Source of the DNA: Promethearchaeota archaeon
Lineage (GTDB): Archaea > Asgardarchaeota > Lokiarchaeia > Sigynarchaeales > SOKP01
DNA: 6,071 nt
NCBI GenBank assembly: GCA_019894655.1
Contig: JAGXNZ010000196.1
Location: 1-6,071 of the forward strand
Direction of reading: 5' to 3'
Every line of letters starts with the position of its first letter. Position 1 is the stretch's first letter. Below are positions 1 to 6,071 of the stretch, one piece after another. Made by a program: the position numbers and the translations under genes. The notes under the pieces were generated by a model. The model ran no database searches. It was not told the origin of the DNA and saw nothing but the letters and a program-made list of their open reading frames with translations.

Positions 1-899
1 CCACTGCCCATCCATCGTATATCGTTTGCCATTTTTAAAAGCGATAATGCTAATAGTCTTAAACTACTGCTAGCGTAAGCTATGGTGTTATGTGAGGATA
101 TTCCCTCTGCTTTTACTGGATTGATTTTAAAGGATAGCGAAGTTATTTTTGAGAGATGGGAAACGGTGAGTTTGTCAAAATCTTTATGAGCATTTAATCC
201 AGTTCCTAATGCAGTACCACCTATTGGAATGTAGAATAACTCATCCAATACCTTATTTAATCGCTCAATATTAATTTCAATTTGTTTTTTATAGACTTTA
301 AACTCCAACGATAGTGGTATTGGGACAGCATCTTGTAAATGAGTTCTTCCTACTTTGACAATATCTTCGAATTCTTCAATTTTGGTGGCGAGAACTTCTT
401 TTAAACTGTTTAATACTGGTATTAATTTTTGGATCATATGCACAGTTGATATGTGCATCGTGCTTGGGATGACATCGTTAGAAGATTGGCTTTTATTTAC
501 ATGATCATTAGGATGGACGGGATATTTTTTGCCCATAGGAAATCCTAGAATTTGAGATGCCCTGTTAGCTAATACCTCATTTATATTCATGTTTGTTTGA
601 GTTCCGCTTCCAGTTTGATAGATATCAATCGGAAATTGATCCGAGTGTTTACTTTCATTTAAAATCTCGTTAACGGCCTGTAGGATAGCATTACCATTTT
701 CTTTATCGATTAATCCCAATTCCATATTTGCTAATAAACACGCTTTTTTGACCTGTGCTAACGAGGTAATAAATATTGTTGGGAACTTTTTTCCACTTAT
801 TTGGAAGTTTTGCACTGCTCTTTGAGTATTAATGCCCCAATATACATCGCTAGGGACTTCTAATTTGCCCAAAACATCTTTTTCTACGCGGTAATTCAA
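1..899 (-). CDS. fumC: Class II fumarate hydratase (fumarase C), N-terminal part, cut by window edge
   Basis: Catalyses the reversible hydration of fumarate to L-malate in the cytoplasm, a TCA cycle step usable in either direction. About 299 codons are visible and the rest (about 160 residues in the family) lies beyond the left edge. Motifs seen: TGSGTQTNMN near residues 96-105, the B-site HPND at 129-132 followed by VNKSQSSND, GRTHLQD at 184-190 with the catalytic His at 187 (E. coli FumC His188), and GGTALGTGLN at 227-236. The GSGTQ form separates it from aspartase, which has GAGTS. The signature loop with GSSxMPxKxN is not in the window, so integrity of the active site cannot be confirmed. 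The start is TTG at 899: an in-frame TAA lies two codons upstream, and the resulting MNYRVEKD aligns with the E. coli N-terminus (MNTVRSEKD). No clear Shine-Dalgarno is seen. It is transcribed away from the acl genes. Family call is secure; the start is likely. Confidence 0.95.
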   Translation of the reverse strand, partial: MNYRVEKDVLGKLEVPSDVYWGINTQRAVQNFQISGKKFPTIFITSLAQVKKACLLANMELGLIDKENGNAILQAVNEILNESKHSDQFPIDIYQTGSGTQTNMNINEVLANRASQILGFPMGKKYPVHPNDHVNKSQSSNDVIPSTMHISTVHMIQKLIPVLNSLKEVLATKIEEFEDIVKVGRTHLQDAVPIPLSLEFKVYKKQIEINIERLNKVLDELFYIPIGGTALGTGLNAHKDFDKLTVSHLSKITSLSFKINPVKAEGISSHNTIAYASSSLRLLALSLLKMANDIRWMGS

Positions 900-1451: not shown

Positions 1452-1532
1452 ATTCCAAATTACATTAAAACTAACTTACTGGCTATAATATCTCTATACA
1501 ATCTCACATTTACATCTACATTGACTTAAAAA

Positions 1533-1546
1533 GGGAAGATATTCCC
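1533..1546. promoter_or_regulatory. GGGAA-GATA-TTCCC dyad upstream of the acl promoter
   Basis: Perfect five-base arms GGGAA (1533-1537) and TTCCC (1542-1546) flank GATA, giving a G/C-containing dyad in otherwise very AT-rich DNA. It ends 22 bases before the proposed acl TATA box, a position typical of an activator or repressor site. No regulator gene is visible nearby, so the ligand is unknown. Confidence 0.4.
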
Positions 1547-1560
1547 ATCTGATTAAAGTG

Positions 1561-1578
1561 GGAAAAATTTATATTAAA
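1561..1578 (+). promoter_or_regulatory. Putative archaeal BRE/TATA promoter of the acl operon
   Basis: GGAAAAA (1561-1567, BRE-like) is followed by TTTATATT (1568-1575), close to the archaeal TATA consensus. Transcription would begin near 1597-1600, leaving a leader of about 47 bases before the TTG start at 1647. It shares GAAAAATTTAT with the fumC promoter. This is the best-looking promoter in the window. Confidence 0.55.
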
Positions 1579-1646
1579 AAAGAAGCTACAATAATTACTA
1601 GTCTATATCGTAATATATCAAATTAAAGTAAGAGATAGAAAGAGAA

Positions 1647-2942
1647 TTGGCTCAAAAAAATATTTATGAGTATGATGCTAAAAAGCTCATAGCCAGCGAA
1701 TTACCAAAATATTATCCAGATTTTAAATATCATAACAAATTAACGGTAATTGATTGCGATACAGATTTAGAAAAAGCAATCTCAGATAATTCGTGGATAA
1801 ATACAGAAAAAGTTGTCGTTAAACCTGACCAACTTTTTGGAAAAAGAGGAAAGGCAAATTTACTCTTACTCGATGCAAATTGTGATGAAATGAAAGATTT
1901 CTGCTATGAGAATTTGGATAGAGTCTGCGAGATTGGGAATGTGAGGGGTGCTTTAAAACGCTTACTTGTAGAACCTTTTGTACCTCACGAGAAAGAGTAT
2001 TATGTTTCAATAACAACCCAAAGAGACGGTGATGTCATCCATTTCAGTTTTGAAGGTGGCATTTTCGTAGAAGAGAATTGGGATAAGGTTATTCACATAC
2101 ATATACCTATAGGAACGGATATTACTTCGTTTGATTTAGAGAGTAAAATGCCAGATTTAGGAGATTCTAAAAATATCTTAATTCCGTTTATTAAGGGGCT
2201 TTATCAAGTGTTTGCTAATCAGGATTTTACTTTTCTTGAAATCAATCCATTCGCGATTACTGAAGATAATAAAGTAGTTCCCTTAGATGTTAAAGCCAGA
2301 CTAGACGATACTGCGATGTTTCTTCACGCAGATACATGGGGAAATCCTAACAACCCAATTGAATTTCCAGCCGGCTTTGGACAAACTATGTCTGAAAAAG
2401 AAGCATACATAAGGGAATTAGACGAGAAAACGGGAGCTTCCCTGAAATTAAAGGTTTTAAATCCTGTCGGTCGAGTGTGGATCATGATTGCTGGAGGGGG
2501 CGCTTCAGTTATCTATACAGACACCATTGTCGACTTAGGATATGGAAACGAATTAGGGAACTATGGAGAATACTCTGGGAACCCATCAAGAGAACACACC
2601 GAAATTTATGCTCAAACAATAATTGATCTCATGACAGAAACGCCCGATCCTGCTGGGAGATCAAAGTATCTCATAATTGGCGGAGGAATTGCTAATTTTA
2701 CAGATGTAAAAGCTACTTTTACTGGAATTGTTAGTGCCATCAGGAATTCGGTTGAAAAATTGATAAAAGCCAAAGTTAAAATTTATGTGCGAAGAGGAGG
2801 ACCTAACGAAAAAGAAGGTCTGGAACTCATGAAACAAGTAGGAACAGAGACCGGAATTCCTTTAGAAGTATACGATAGATATACTCATATGACGAGGGTT
2901 GTCGATTTAATAAAACAAGCAGAAGAATCAGGAGGGGCTTAA
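1647..2942 (+). CDS. aclB: ATP-citrate lyase, small subunit (ATP-grasp and citrate-binding)
   Basis: With the next gene it forms ATP-citrate lyase: citrate + CoA + ATP to acetyl-CoA + oxaloacetate + ADP + Pi. This 431-residue subunit corresponds to the N-terminal part of animal ACLY and to plant ACLA; bacterial usage calls it AclB. Residues 1 to about 240 form the ATP-grasp, with VVKPDQL at 57-63, KRGK at 66-69, LLVEPFVPH at 106-114, FEGG at 135-138 and metal-site LEINP at 197-201. The rest is the citrate domain, with AGGGASV, NYGEYSG, IANFTDV (N350 and T352 equal human N346 and T348) and RRGGP at 382-386. Length is near plant ACLA (about 423). The start is TTG at 1647: an in-frame TAA lies 18 bases upstream, the next in-frame ATG is some 80 codons inside, and the N-terminus then aligns with the family. 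The ribosome site is weak (AAAGAGAA). It is the first gene of a two-gene operon. Confidence 0.96.
   Translation: MAQKNIYEYDAKKLIASELPKYYPDFKYHNKLTVIDCDTDLEKAISDNSWINTEKVVVKPDQLFGKRGKANLLLLDANCDEMKDFCYENLDRVCEIGNVRGALKRLLVEPFVPHEKEYYVSITTQRDGDVIHFSFEGGIFVEENWDKVIHIHIPIGTDITSFDLESKMPDLGDSKNILIPFIKGLYQVFANQDFTFLEINPFAITEDNKVVPLDVKARLDDTAMFLHADTWGNPNNPIEFPAGFGQTMSEKEAYIRELDEKTGASLKLKVLNPVGRVWIMIAGGGASVIYTDTIVDLGYGNELGNYGEYSGNPSREHTEIYAQTIIDLMTETPDPAGRSKYLIIGGGIANFTDVKATFTGIVSAIRNSVEKLIKAKVKIYVRRGGPNEKEGLELMKQVGTETGIPLEVYDRYTHMTRVVDLIKQAEESGGA
2931..2937 (+). promoter_or_regulatory. Shine-Dalgarno of aclA inside the end of aclB
   Basis: GGAGGGG is encoded by the last codons of aclB and lies six bases before the ATG at 2944. 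The aclB stop (2940-2942) is one base from that ATG. This is a classic layout for translational coupling, which would help make the two subunits in equal amounts. Confidence 0.8.
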
Positions 2943-2943
2943 A

Positions 2944-4779
2944 ATGGAAGATTACGAACTATTTAACAGAAATACTCAAGCAATTATTTACGGATTTCAA
3001 AGGAACCCAATTCAAAGAATGCTTGATTTCGATTTTGTTAGTAAGAGAGAAAAACAGTCGGTAGCAGCAATAATTAATCCTACTCAGACTGCCGCGATCA
3101 GTTATCATAAAGTTTTTTACGGTAGTTCTGAAATAGTAATACCGATTTATAAAACGCTTGATTTAGCAATGAAAAAACATCCGAATGCTGATGTGATGAT
3201 AAATTTTGCTTCTTTTAGATCTTCGTACGAGACTAGTAAAGAAGCTTTGGAATCTGACACAATTAGAACTGTTGTTATTATAGCTGAAGGGATTCCTGAA
3301 AGACTGAGTCGAGATTTAATCAAAATCGCAAAAGAGAAAAATAAGATTATTATTGGGCCTGCTACTGTGGGAGGAATTGTAGCAGGAGCTTTTAAAATAG
3401 GCAATACTGCCGGAACCCTTGAAAACATTAGACTTTCAAAATTATATCGTCCAGGATCAGTTGGGTTCGTCTCAAAATCGGGCGGCTTAAGCAATGAAAT
3501 GAATTTTATGATAAGTCAAACAACAGATGGCGTGTACGAAGGCATTGCTATTGGTGGCGATCGTTATCCTGGTTCTAGATTGATAGATCATCTCATGCGA
3601 TACGAAGCAAATCCTAGAATAAAAATGTTAGTAGTGCTAGGTGAAATTGGTGGTACGGATGAATATGCGATAGTTGATGCTTTAAAAACCGGAAAAATAA
3701 CTAAACCTATAGTTGGGTGGGTGACCGGAACAGCAGCAAAGATATTGCCTAAAGGATTACAGTTTGGTCACGCAGGGGCTATGGCAGATAGCTCTAAAGA
3801 AACAGCTGACGCTAAGAACCGCGCGTTAAGAGAGGCGGGTGCTATCGTTCCAGAATCATACGAAGATTTAGACAAAGAAATTAGAAAAACATTCGATAAA
3901 CTAAAACAGGAAGGAAAAATACAACCAGTTGAAGATTTTGAACCTCCAGCAGTTCCGTTAGATTATAGTGCTGCTGTAAGGGAAGGAAAAGTAAGAAGAC
4001 CTACTGATGTTGTAGTTACCATCTCTGATGATAGAGGAGATGTTCCTACCTTTGCTGGTATTGGATTAGATACCATTATTAAAAATAATAAATCGATTGG
4101 ATATGTAATCGGTTTATTGTGGTTTAAGAGAGAATTACCAGAATTTGCCCAAGAGTTTATTGAAATAGTCATCAAATTAACGGCCGACCATGGCCCAGCA
4201 GTTTCGGGTGCTCATAACGCAATAATAACAGCTCGGGCAGGAAAAGATTTAATGTCCTCTCTTGCGTCAGGAATTCTGACAATCGGTCCAAGGTTCGGTG
4301 GAGCAATATCAGATGCAGCTAAATACTTCAGAGAAGCTCTACAAAAAGAAATGTCTCCGTTAGATTTTATGGGATATATGAAGAATGTGGTTCAAATTAA
4401 TATCCCAGGTATTGGACATAGAATAAAATCAGTTCAAAATCCCGATGTTCGGGTCCTGTTATTAAAAGAATTCGTATTTAAACACTTTGAAAAGCATCCC
4501 CACCTCGATTACGCTTTAGAAGTTGAGAAACTTACAACCTCTAAAAGAAACAATCTTATCCTCAATGTAGATGGTTGTATTGGCATTACATTTCTAGATT
4601 TACTCGAAAATTTAGATTTTACTAAAGAAGAAATTGAAGATGTTATACATAGTGAAGCATTAAACGGTCTTTTTGTACTTGGACGTTCGATTGGAATGAT
4701 GGGGCATGTGTTCGATCAGAAACGCCAAAGAGCTGGATTATTCAGGCAACCTTGGGACGAGATCTTATTTTCAGAATAG
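2944..4779 (+). CDS. aclA: ATP-citrate lyase, large subunit (CoA-ligase plus citryl-CoA lyase domains)
   Basis: This catalytic subunit forms citryl-phosphate and citryl-CoA and then cleaves citryl-CoA to acetyl-CoA and oxaloacetate. It corresponds to the C-terminal part of animal ACLY and to plant ACLB; bacterial usage is AclA. At 611 residues it is full length (about 608-610 in the family). Order: CoA-binding fold from residue 12 (IIYGFQRNPIQRMLDFDF), IIGPATVGG, SVGFVSKSGG, GVYEGIAIGGDRYPGS, then FGHAGA with phospho-His H276 (human H760). A linker near 318-345 leads to the citrate synthase-like lyase domain: TADHGPAVSGAHN (H424), RAGKDLMSS, GIGHR (H492), LDYALEVEK, NVDG and FDQKR with catalytic D591. 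Every catalytic landmark I know is present, so it should be active. Because the lyase domain is attached, this is ATP-citrate lyase and not the separate citryl-CoA synthetase/lyase pair of Hydrogenobacter. Human-type motifs are matched almost residue for residue. Confidence 0.97.
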   Translation: MEDYELFNRNTQAIIYGFQRNPIQRMLDFDFVSKREKQSVAAIINPTQTAAISYHKVFYGSSEIVIPIYKTLDLAMKKHPNADVMINFASFRSSYETSKEALESDTIRTVVIIAEGIPERLSRDLIKIAKEKNKIIIGPATVGGIVAGAFKIGNTAGTLENIRLSKLYRPGSVGFVSKSGGLSNEMNFMISQTTDGVYEGIAIGGDRYPGSRLIDHLMRYEANPRIKMLVVLGEIGGTDEYAIVDALKTGKITKPIVGWVTGTAAKILPKGLQFGHAGAMADSSKETADAKNRALREAGAIVPESYEDLDKEIRKTFDKLKQEGKIQPVEDFEPPAVPLDYSAAVREGKVRRPTDVVVTISDDRGDVPTFAGIGLDTIIKNNKSIGYVIGLLWFKRELPEFAQEFIEIVIKLTADHGPAVSGAHNAIITARAGKDLMSSLASGILTIGPRFGGAISDAAKYFREALQKEMSPLDFMGYMKNVVQINIPGIGHRIKSVQNPDVRVLLLKEFVFKHFEKHPHLDYALEVEKLTTSKRNNLILNVDGCIGITFLDLLENLDFTKEEIEDVIHSEALNGLFVLGRSIGMMGHVFDQKRQRAGLFRQPWDEILFSE

Positions 4780-4786
4780 TGAATTA

Positions 4787-4807
4787 TTTTTTTTTAATTT
4801 TTTTCTT
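4787..4807 (+). terminator. Poly-T terminator of the acl operon
   Basis: Eight bases after the aclA stop comes T9-AA-T7-C-TT with no stem-loop, matching archaeal intrinsic termination. It lies in the 57-base gap between the convergent aclA and membrane-protein genes. The opposite strand has no T tract, so the minus-strand gene shows no equivalent signal here. Confidence 0.6.
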
Positions 4808-4836
4808 AATTAAATGTAGTATTTTGGAATTTGTAT

Positions 4837-5610
4837 CTAATTATCCTTTTTTTCTAAATATCCTGAACCATAGGGTAACCCAAATATTCCTGGCTTGACC
4901 ATAGGAGCGTGAAAGATACCTTTAGCCCATGGAGCAGGAAACTTCTGGGCAATAGCTGATGAGACTAATGCTATTATAAAAATGAATATGAATATAGCAT
5001 AATTACCCCAAATTGTAAGAAATCCCAAACTAATTGTTACATTGGGCAAATGACAGGCAAAAGTTTTAATTACTATCGATCTAGGTGTGTCATGCTCAGG
5101 ACTCACATAAATATCCCAGAAATAAGCTTGTATGAAAAATTGCCATACACCAATGCAGATATAGCTTAAAATATAGATAAGCCATGGAGAAATACCTGTT
5201 AAACTCCAAAGGTGATAAATTGAAAGAATCAGCCCCCCAGTACTAAAACCCCAGATAAGACCAAATACAATTTCCGAACTGAGATAAAATTTTCTGTCAA
5301 AAGTAAGAGTACTGCGAGGCCATATTATCACATAGGCAATAAATACAAATATAAAACAGACAATTATATACAATATCCAAAATGGGCTTGAGATTTGTTC
5401 CGTAGTGAATAAGGGTCTTGTAAATATCTGCTCGAGCGTCCCTGAGGCAGCTATAAATATATTACAGAAGGAAAAATATATAAGAGCCCGAGTCCATGCA
5501 GCAACCGGTTTCCAAACATCAATAGGGAGTTTTCTACATTTTATTATATATAATCCAATCATAAAACCGCCAAAAATGGCAATAGATGCAATAAAGATAG
5601 GTATTAACAA
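4837..5610 (-). CDS. Integral membrane protein of unknown function, about seven helices
   Basis: I do not recognise this 257-residue protein. Hydrophobic segments lie near residues 2-22, 41-58, 76-97, 112-133, 142-162, 189-201 and 204-222, giving six or seven membrane spans. There is no signal peptide-like cleavage region and no transporter or enzyme motif known to me. The stretch FWDIYVSPEHDTPRSI at 164-179, followed by CHLPN at 186-190, is rich in polar, acidic and His residues between two helices and looks like the functional core. A Pro/Gly-rich tail (APWAKGIFHAP, then KPGIFGLPYG) follows the last helix. The start is TTG at 5610, fixed by AAGGAGA (5624-5618) seven bases upstream; no ATG is better placed. 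It is convergent with aclA and divergent from the isocitrate dehydrogenase gene, so co-function with either is not implied. Coding is convincing; the function is open. Confidence 0.85.
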   Translation of the reverse strand: MLIPIFIASIAIFGGFMIGLYIIKCRKLPIDVWKPVAAWTRALIYFSFCNIFIAASGTLEQIFTRPLFTTEQISSPFWILYIIVCFIFVFIAYVIIWPRSTLTFDRKFYLSSEIVFGLIWGFSTGGLILSIYHLWSLTGISPWLIYILSYICIGVWQFFIQAYFWDIYVSPEHDTPRSIVIKTFACHLPNVTISLGFLTIWGNYAIFIFIFIIALVSSAIAQKFPAPWAKGIFHAPMVKPGIFGLPYGSGYLEKKDN

Positions 5611-5617
5611 GTTAAAT

Positions 5618-5893: not shown

Positions 5894-6071
5894 ATGGAAG
5901 AAGTAATACAAAAAGCAAAAGACCATTTTGAAGGATTGGTAAGGGCTCAATTAAAAAGAATTGAGGATTTAAAGAAAGGAGCAGATTGGATTGATTATTC
6001 GGCATTAAAACCACTCATCATAGGAATAACTGGCGGAGATTATATTGGTCCAGAAATTACAAAACACGCCG
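5894..6071 (+). CDS. icd: Isocitrate/isopropylmalate dehydrogenase family, probably isocitrate dehydrogenase; N-terminus only
   Basis: Fifty-nine codons are visible before the window ends. After a charged, helix-like extension of about 37 residues (MEEVIQKAKDHFEGL onward), a beta strand LIIGIT leads into GGDYIGPEIT at 47-56. This is the nucleotide-binding start of beta-decarboxylating dehydrogenases, usually GDGIGPE. The family oxidises isocitrate, 3-isopropylmalate, homoisocitrate or tartrate; the substrate-binding residues lie outside the window. I choose isocitrate dehydrogenase because the neighbours are ATP-citrate lyase and fumarase, and because the long N-terminal extension resembles one I recall in some anaerobes' isocitrate dehydrogenases. 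In a reductive cycle it would carboxylate 2-oxoglutarate. Tyr replacing the second Gly of the motif is unusual. The ATG at 5894 has no Shine-Dalgarno and sits just below the promoter. Family call firm, substrate inferred. Confidence 0.72.
   Translation, partial: MEEVIQKAKDHFEGLVRAQLKRIEDLKKGADWIDYSALKPLIIGITGGDYIGPEITKHA

Follow-up and report, generated by a model that had tools for sequence, protein, structure and literature searches.

The closest described relatives of the locus considered here are ATP-citrate lyases (ACLs) of solved structure. The enzyme of Methanothrix (Methanosaeta concilii), ACLY-A/ACLY-B (6hxi, 6znw), consists of two subunits, and human and other animal ACLY (6hxh, 6poe) is fused into a single chain. 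By comparison, Chlorobium limicola AclA/AclB (6hxj) is again a two-subunit enzyme, and ACL chemistry is divided over two enzymes in the citryl-CoA synthetase and citryl-CoA lyase system (6hxq, 6hxp; presumably that of Hydrogenobacter). Here we analysed a stretch of 6,071 nucleotides from Promethearchaeota archaeon (positions 1 to 6,071 of contig JAGXNZ010000196.1, assembly GCA_019894655.1), hereafter the window, which carries two adjacent genes resembling ACL subunits. Our comparison indicates with high confidence that a Lokiarchaeia archaeon here encodes a genuine heteromeric ACL, of the Methanothrix/eukaryote type, and that the pair was inherited within Asgard and not recently acquired. Loci, genomes and proteins used for comparison carry L, G and P numbers.

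The predicted small subunit (1647..2942, + strand; 431 aa) comprises ATP-grasp and citrate-binding domains, and the predicted large subunit (2944..4779, + strand; 611 aa) combines the alpha part of a citryl-CoA synthetase with a C-terminal citryl-CoA lyase part. In the list of open reading frames (ORFs), both run uninterrupted from start to stop and are spaced by 1 nt, and the subunits are therefore probably translated together. By eye, a ribosome-binding site of the large subunit, GGAGGGG, is seen at 2931..2937 (+ strand), 6 nt before the second ATG, together with a TATA-like TTTATATTAAAA at about 1568-1579 and a T-run after 4781. The first start of the small subunit is TTG, likewise in the Loki relatives L002, L005, L008 and L012. 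The names that we take to denote its counterparts are ACLY-A in Methanothrix, ACLA in plants and AclB in Chlorobium.

The top PDB match of both subunits is the Methanothrix ACL, with which the window pair shares the two-subunit organization, domains and catalytic residues at an identity of 50% (small) and 58% (large). The mechanism residues are also shared with human ACLY, at 47% (small) and 55% (large) identity, whereas the Chlorobium enzyme is far more distant. The corresponding E values are 6e-134 for 6hxi_A, about 1e-100 for human and 6e-58 for Chlorobium (small subunit), and 2e-235 for 6hxi_B, 2e-219 for human and 3e-126 for Chlorobium (large subunit). Among the solved structures, both subunits are closer to ACL than to citryl-CoA synthetase or to succinyl-CoA synthetase, which scores far lower. 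In Pfam, the small subunit matches Citrate_bind (E 8e-77) and Citrate_synth_N (E 8e-67), with PF24948 and PF16114 above cut-off, and the large subunit matches Ligase_CoA (PF00549, E 3e-22) and Citrate_synt (PF00285, E 5e-19), both above cut-off. ORFs, Pfam domains and solved-structure matches thus agree on a two-subunit ACL with both subunits full length, as the preliminary description had proposed. A paralogue of succinyl-CoA synthetase (SCS) or citryl-CoA synthetase could in principle be mistaken for such a pair, as the domains are homologous and SCS models do appear among the NCBIfam matches, every one far below cut-off. However, the window pair has its lyase domain fused onto the large subunit, unlike the three polypeptides of the citryl-CoA synthetase and lyase system; full-length ACL chains outscore the best SCS for the large subunit (786-425 versus 116 bits); and four relatives carry separate sucC/sucD-like genes upstream of ACL. 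At the level of sequence, this misreading is refuted.

Alignment to human ACLY places the putative phospho-histidine at H276 (human H760), the citrate site at N350, T352 and R383 (human N346, T348 and R379) and the lyase residues at H416, H492 and D543 (human H900, H975 and D1026), the functional roles of the human residues being those that we presume. Conservation was counted in 48 non-tandem large-subunit rows and 55 small-subunit rows. H276 is kept in 48/48, and H416, H492 and D543 are each kept in 47/48, the sole exception being L151, which is truncated by a contig end; N350 and R383 are kept in 55/55 and T352 in 54/55. The preliminary description had assigned H276, N350, T352 and H492 correctly, but its lyase residue D591 has to be replaced: D591 belongs to a conserved DQKR motif (47/48 large-subunit rows) and lies elsewhere, since human D1026 aligns with D543. 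The D543 equivalent is D in 6hxi and A in 6znw_B, a Methanothrix chain variant, which would fit a catalytic-acid mutant.

The host, earlier taken for a probable archaeon, is by its DNA matches a Lokiarchaeia archaeon, as the contig matches named Lokiarchaeota both within and beyond the ACL genes (81-85% DNA identity over 3.6-4.6 kb). Positions 1530-5615 are 85% identical to L003 over 4,086 bp, L005 matches at 81% over 4,577 bp, and positions 1-982 are 90% identical to L006 over 982 bp; the window is therefore Lokiarchaeota-like at its fumarase end as well as around ACL. Outside the ACL genes, a membrane-like ORF of the window is also 80% identical in L005. No rRNA or ribosomal marker appears in the ORF list of the window, Rfam not having been searched. 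Furthermore, the large subunit is 90-93% identical in fourteen loci (L001-L014), all titled Lokiarchaeota or Lokiarchaeia. In public collections, one protein (P0001) is 100% identical to it, and 'ATP citrate synthase' entries of Candidatus Lokiarchaeota (e.g. P0024, P0029 and P0031), which represent the same large subunit with no difference in kind, are 84-86% identical.

Inheritance within Asgard is suggested by the trees, which comprise a large-subunit tree (53 rows: 22 Asgard, 9 animal and 5 tandem proteins among them), a joined-subunit tree (43 rows, with 7 animal and 22 Asgard) and small-subunit trees. Neither the large nor the joined tree is rooted, the only outgroup is the Chlorobium small subunit in the small-subunit tree, plants are sampled in the small-subunit tree only, fungi and protists in none, and long branches occur in all trees. 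The 22 Asgard rows form one clade with 100/100 support in the large tree, the outgroup-free small tree and the joined tree, and this clade subdivides into Thor-, Hod/Heimdall- and Loki-labelled subclades. The Methanothrix enzyme sits on a separate branch; in the joined tree, three archaeal rows and a single bacterial one group with Asgard (88/84).

ACL is also frequent across the phylum. A scan of genome contigs for the large subunit returned 55 loci; besides Asgard contigs these comprised a single Methanomicrobia locus, four from Deltaproteobacteria, a proteobacterial fragment and a weak match in Aquabacterium, and no genome of Chlorobi, Campylobacterota or Aquificota. The citrate-binding domain PF16114 was found in 59/227 Asgard-phylum genomes (58 strong matches and a weak one in G045, E 2e-26) and in 0/14 control genomes; within the class of G001, the Lokiarchaeia, 42/83 genomes carry it. 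By comparison, it occurs in 2/115 genomes of the phylum of the Methanomicrobia locus, and above cut-off in 9/282 genomes (5 strong) of the phylum of G009 and 35/198 (8 strong) of that of G010, where the weaker matches are distant relatives (eight read). Predicted ACL is thus a widespread Asgard trait, common in Lokiarchaeia, and the earlier statement that archaeal examples are few is not supported, an archaeal ACL structure having moreover been solved already (6hxi/6znw).

Several observations weigh against the overall reading of the pair. As 17 of the 59 carriers fall outside the Lokiarchaeia class and 168/227 genomes lack the family, either repeated loss or a measure of transfer has to be invoked. 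The Asgard-phylum genome G058 (1.4 Mb) carries a different ACL (L139:4080-7057, a partly masked stretch) that lies outside the Asgard clade, and rooting the small tree with Chlorobium leaves the Asgard rows as an unresolved set beside the rest (2 changes). In addition, the chromosome-level genome G003 (L019) has ACL and aconitase without a PF00180 match, and the link to an isocitrate dehydrogenase (IDH)-like gene described below is therefore not universal. The G003 record is partly masked, and it also lacks a citrate synthase and an HMGL-like match.

Two other sets of relatives were set aside. Eight loci from the phyla of G009 and G010 (L147-L149, L154-L157 and L159) were excluded from the comparison as distant relatives; they encode divergent small subunits of 414-466 aa with ~23-30% identity, followed in all seven seen of the eight by a reading frame of ~700-950 aa, and perhaps represent another citrate-cleaving type. 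In G045, three genes (L138:853-3735) form a citryl-CoA synthetase-like pair plus a citrate-synthase-like lyase. This set, which may be misbinned because its contig is only 4.6 kb, was considered as an outgroup and then set aside.

The preliminary description had suggested that the pair could bear on how the eukaryotic enzyme originated, should the host be an Asgard archaeon. The strongest form of this suggestion, in which eukaryotic ACL derives from the Asgard enzyme and the window pair represents the archaeal ancestor type, finds some encouragement in the 55% identity of the large subunit to human and in the small subunit, for which, without outgroup, neither eukaryotes plus Asgard (p 0.235) nor animals plus Asgard (p 0.271) is rejected and plants with a long bacterial row (L152) adjoin the Asgard clade (84/94). 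The large subunit speaks otherwise: grouping animals with Asgard costs 110 log units and is rejected by the approximately unbiased (AU) test (p-AU 3.3e-6), also after removal of the tandem rows (p 0.0057), and the joined subunits reject it as well (p 0.004). In the large and joined trees, animal ACLY branches with bacterial rows, apart from Asgard; in the large tree, animals join the five tandem proteins (100/99) and then the bacterial L043, L150 and L151 (95/86). L043 is labelled Myxococcota, and L046, with the same label, is placed elsewhere in that tree. Human ACLY is more similar to the bacterial rows L140-L146, at 57-61% identity in the large and 52-56% in the small subunit, than to Asgard-clade rows (51-57% large, 43-48% small). 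We therefore regard an Asgard origin of the eukaryotic enzyme as very improbable; Asgard as the source of animal ACL in particular appears disfavoured, with the large and joined rejections as evidence against it and the small subunit unable to decide.

The tandem proteins belong to a group of ACL large subunits of 866-1040 aa that are 55-64% identical to human (P0121-P0131, P0135, P0162 and P0180). The four scanned (P0121, P0124, P0162 and P0180) contain two citrate-synthase-like domains each, P0121 and P0124 have two CoA-ligase domains as well, and by eye the inner lyase copy lacks motifs of the active site (ADHGP and GIGHR among them). In the large tree, five tandem proteins, represented by their first 370 residues, are sister to animals.

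At the end of the window, the start of an IDH-like gene (5894..6071, + strand; 59 aa) runs off the edge; it has no Pfam match alone, and tblastn matched it to 46 loci, some of them duplicates of one place. Its full-length relative (L005:8960-10147) is a PF00180 protein nearest to IDH and archaeal LEU3 models, and its substrate can only be surmised because the protein falls below all NCBIfam cut-offs listed. With distances taken between domain starts and IDH-like meaning a PF00180 protein of ~400 aa, 33/42 Lokiarchaeia carriers have such a gene no further than 6 kb from ACL. Aconitase occurs on the same contig, no more than 30 kb from ACL, in at least 18/42; among the aconitase matches listed, six are within 3 kb of ACL, and two of the 18 belong to AcnA, the longer type. 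Ten loci were read for gene order. L018 and L047 show the order aconitase-aclS-aclL-IDH, as does the Thorarchaeal L035, where the IDH is longer (446 aa). In four of the ten (L002, L005, L008 and L012), sucC-sucD-like genes precede aclS-aclL-IDH, some of these genes being separated by ORFs that are short or on the opposite strand.

At the other edge, a class II, FumC-like fumarase gene (3..899, - strand; 299 aa) is cut by the window, and its TIGR00979 score (E 5e-107) is below cut-off for that reason. As in the window, fumarase lies upstream of ACL in seven other distinct Loki loci (eight matches, two of them one place), the L006 protein being 92% identical. Between fumarase and ACL, an ORF of 99 aa (1078-1377, - strand) resembles the C-terminus of a GPH/MFS_2 transporter and may be a remnant. 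L008 has full-length members of this transporter family upstream of sucCD and ACL, which share just ~31% identity with the ORF. A membrane-like ORF of 257 aa (4837-5610, - strand) without Pfam or NCBIfam match is 78-81% identical in Lokiarchaeota L002-L005, where it lies directly downstream of ACL.

The reaction mechanism would be that of the ACL family. The small subunit would bind ATP and citrate, H276 of the large subunit would hand the phosphate to citrate, citryl-CoA would be formed, and H416, H492 and D543 would split it into acetyl-CoA and oxaloacetate. Together with aconitase and IDH, ACL would connect 2-oxoglutarate with acetyl-CoA and oxaloacetate. ACL activity, subunit assembly, IDH substrate and direction are predictions here, and net citrate cleavage outside a full reductive tricarboxylic acid (rTCA) cycle is the most likely flux, held with modest confidence. 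No flavoprotein of succinate dehydrogenase/fumarate reductase (SDH/FRD) was found as a strong PF00890 match in G003 and G004, the two most complete of the 42 carriers, where the strong match is L-aspartate oxidase only; the full reductive cycle is therefore unsupported in these two genomes. As to 2-oxoglutarate:ferredoxin oxidoreductase, G003 has five PF01855 matches, and of the three PorA-like proteins classified none is above any model cut-off.

ACL might instead run backwards and, as an ADP-forming, ATP-yielding citrate synthase, supply aconitase and IDH for the synthesis of 2-oxoglutarate and glutamate. The ACL reaction is near equilibrium, IDH-like and aconitase genes neighbour ACL, and a separate citrate synthase (a PF00285 match other than ACL, E<1e-30) is absent in 35/42 Lokiarchaeia carriers. 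Nine of these, G003 among them, also lack an HMGL-like protein and so any candidate Re-citrate synthase. Yet citrate synthase is likewise absent in 29/41 non-carriers (present in 12/41), and ACL and citrate synthase do not significantly exclude each other within Lokiarchaeia (Fisher p 0.20). Moreover, seven of the 42 carriers have both enzymes, most carriers are multi-contig drafts in which genes may be missed, and G003 has no PF00180 protein at all; the lack of SDH/FRD in the two carriers checked says nothing on ACL direction. We consider backward operation unlikely, and slightly more doubtful still the narrower proposal that, in Lokiarchaeia with ACL but with neither Si- nor candidate Re-citrate synthase, reverse ACL serves as the ATP-yielding citrate synthase and 2-oxoglutarate is reached through aconitase and the neighbouring IDH. 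From the citrate synthase, HMGL and PF00180 counts, ACL would therefore either split citrate derived from 2-oxoglutarate, which we hold to be likelier, or make citrate.

Previous reports have described an rTCA gene in two Lokiarchaeota (PMC6646929), the rTCA cycle in Heimdallarchaeia (PMC11193907), a partial one in two other Asgard lineages (PMC9723677) and ACL in some Methanosarcinales (PMC11237513). Among archaea, an ACL-based rTCA cycle has been assigned to Thermoplasmatota, with another cycle for Lokiarchaeia (PMC9802188); a list of rTCA genes covers four phyla, no Asgard among them (PMC12400630); and the eukaryotic ACL fusion is treated in PMC5851275. Nothing on Asgard ACL was found in PMC12806544, PMC9088280 and PMC8130349. 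New here are the phylum-wide ACL count, the association with an IDH-like gene and the tests on the trees. Predicted ACL is widespread in Asgard (59/227 genomes), usually with an IDH-like gene nearby in Lokiarchaeia, and most of the tree evidence speaks against deriving the animal enzyme of cytosolic acetyl-CoA supply from the Asgard host lineage. If some Lokiarchaeia indeed had no enzyme other than ACL for making citrate, it would become testable in which direction a central step of metabolism runs.

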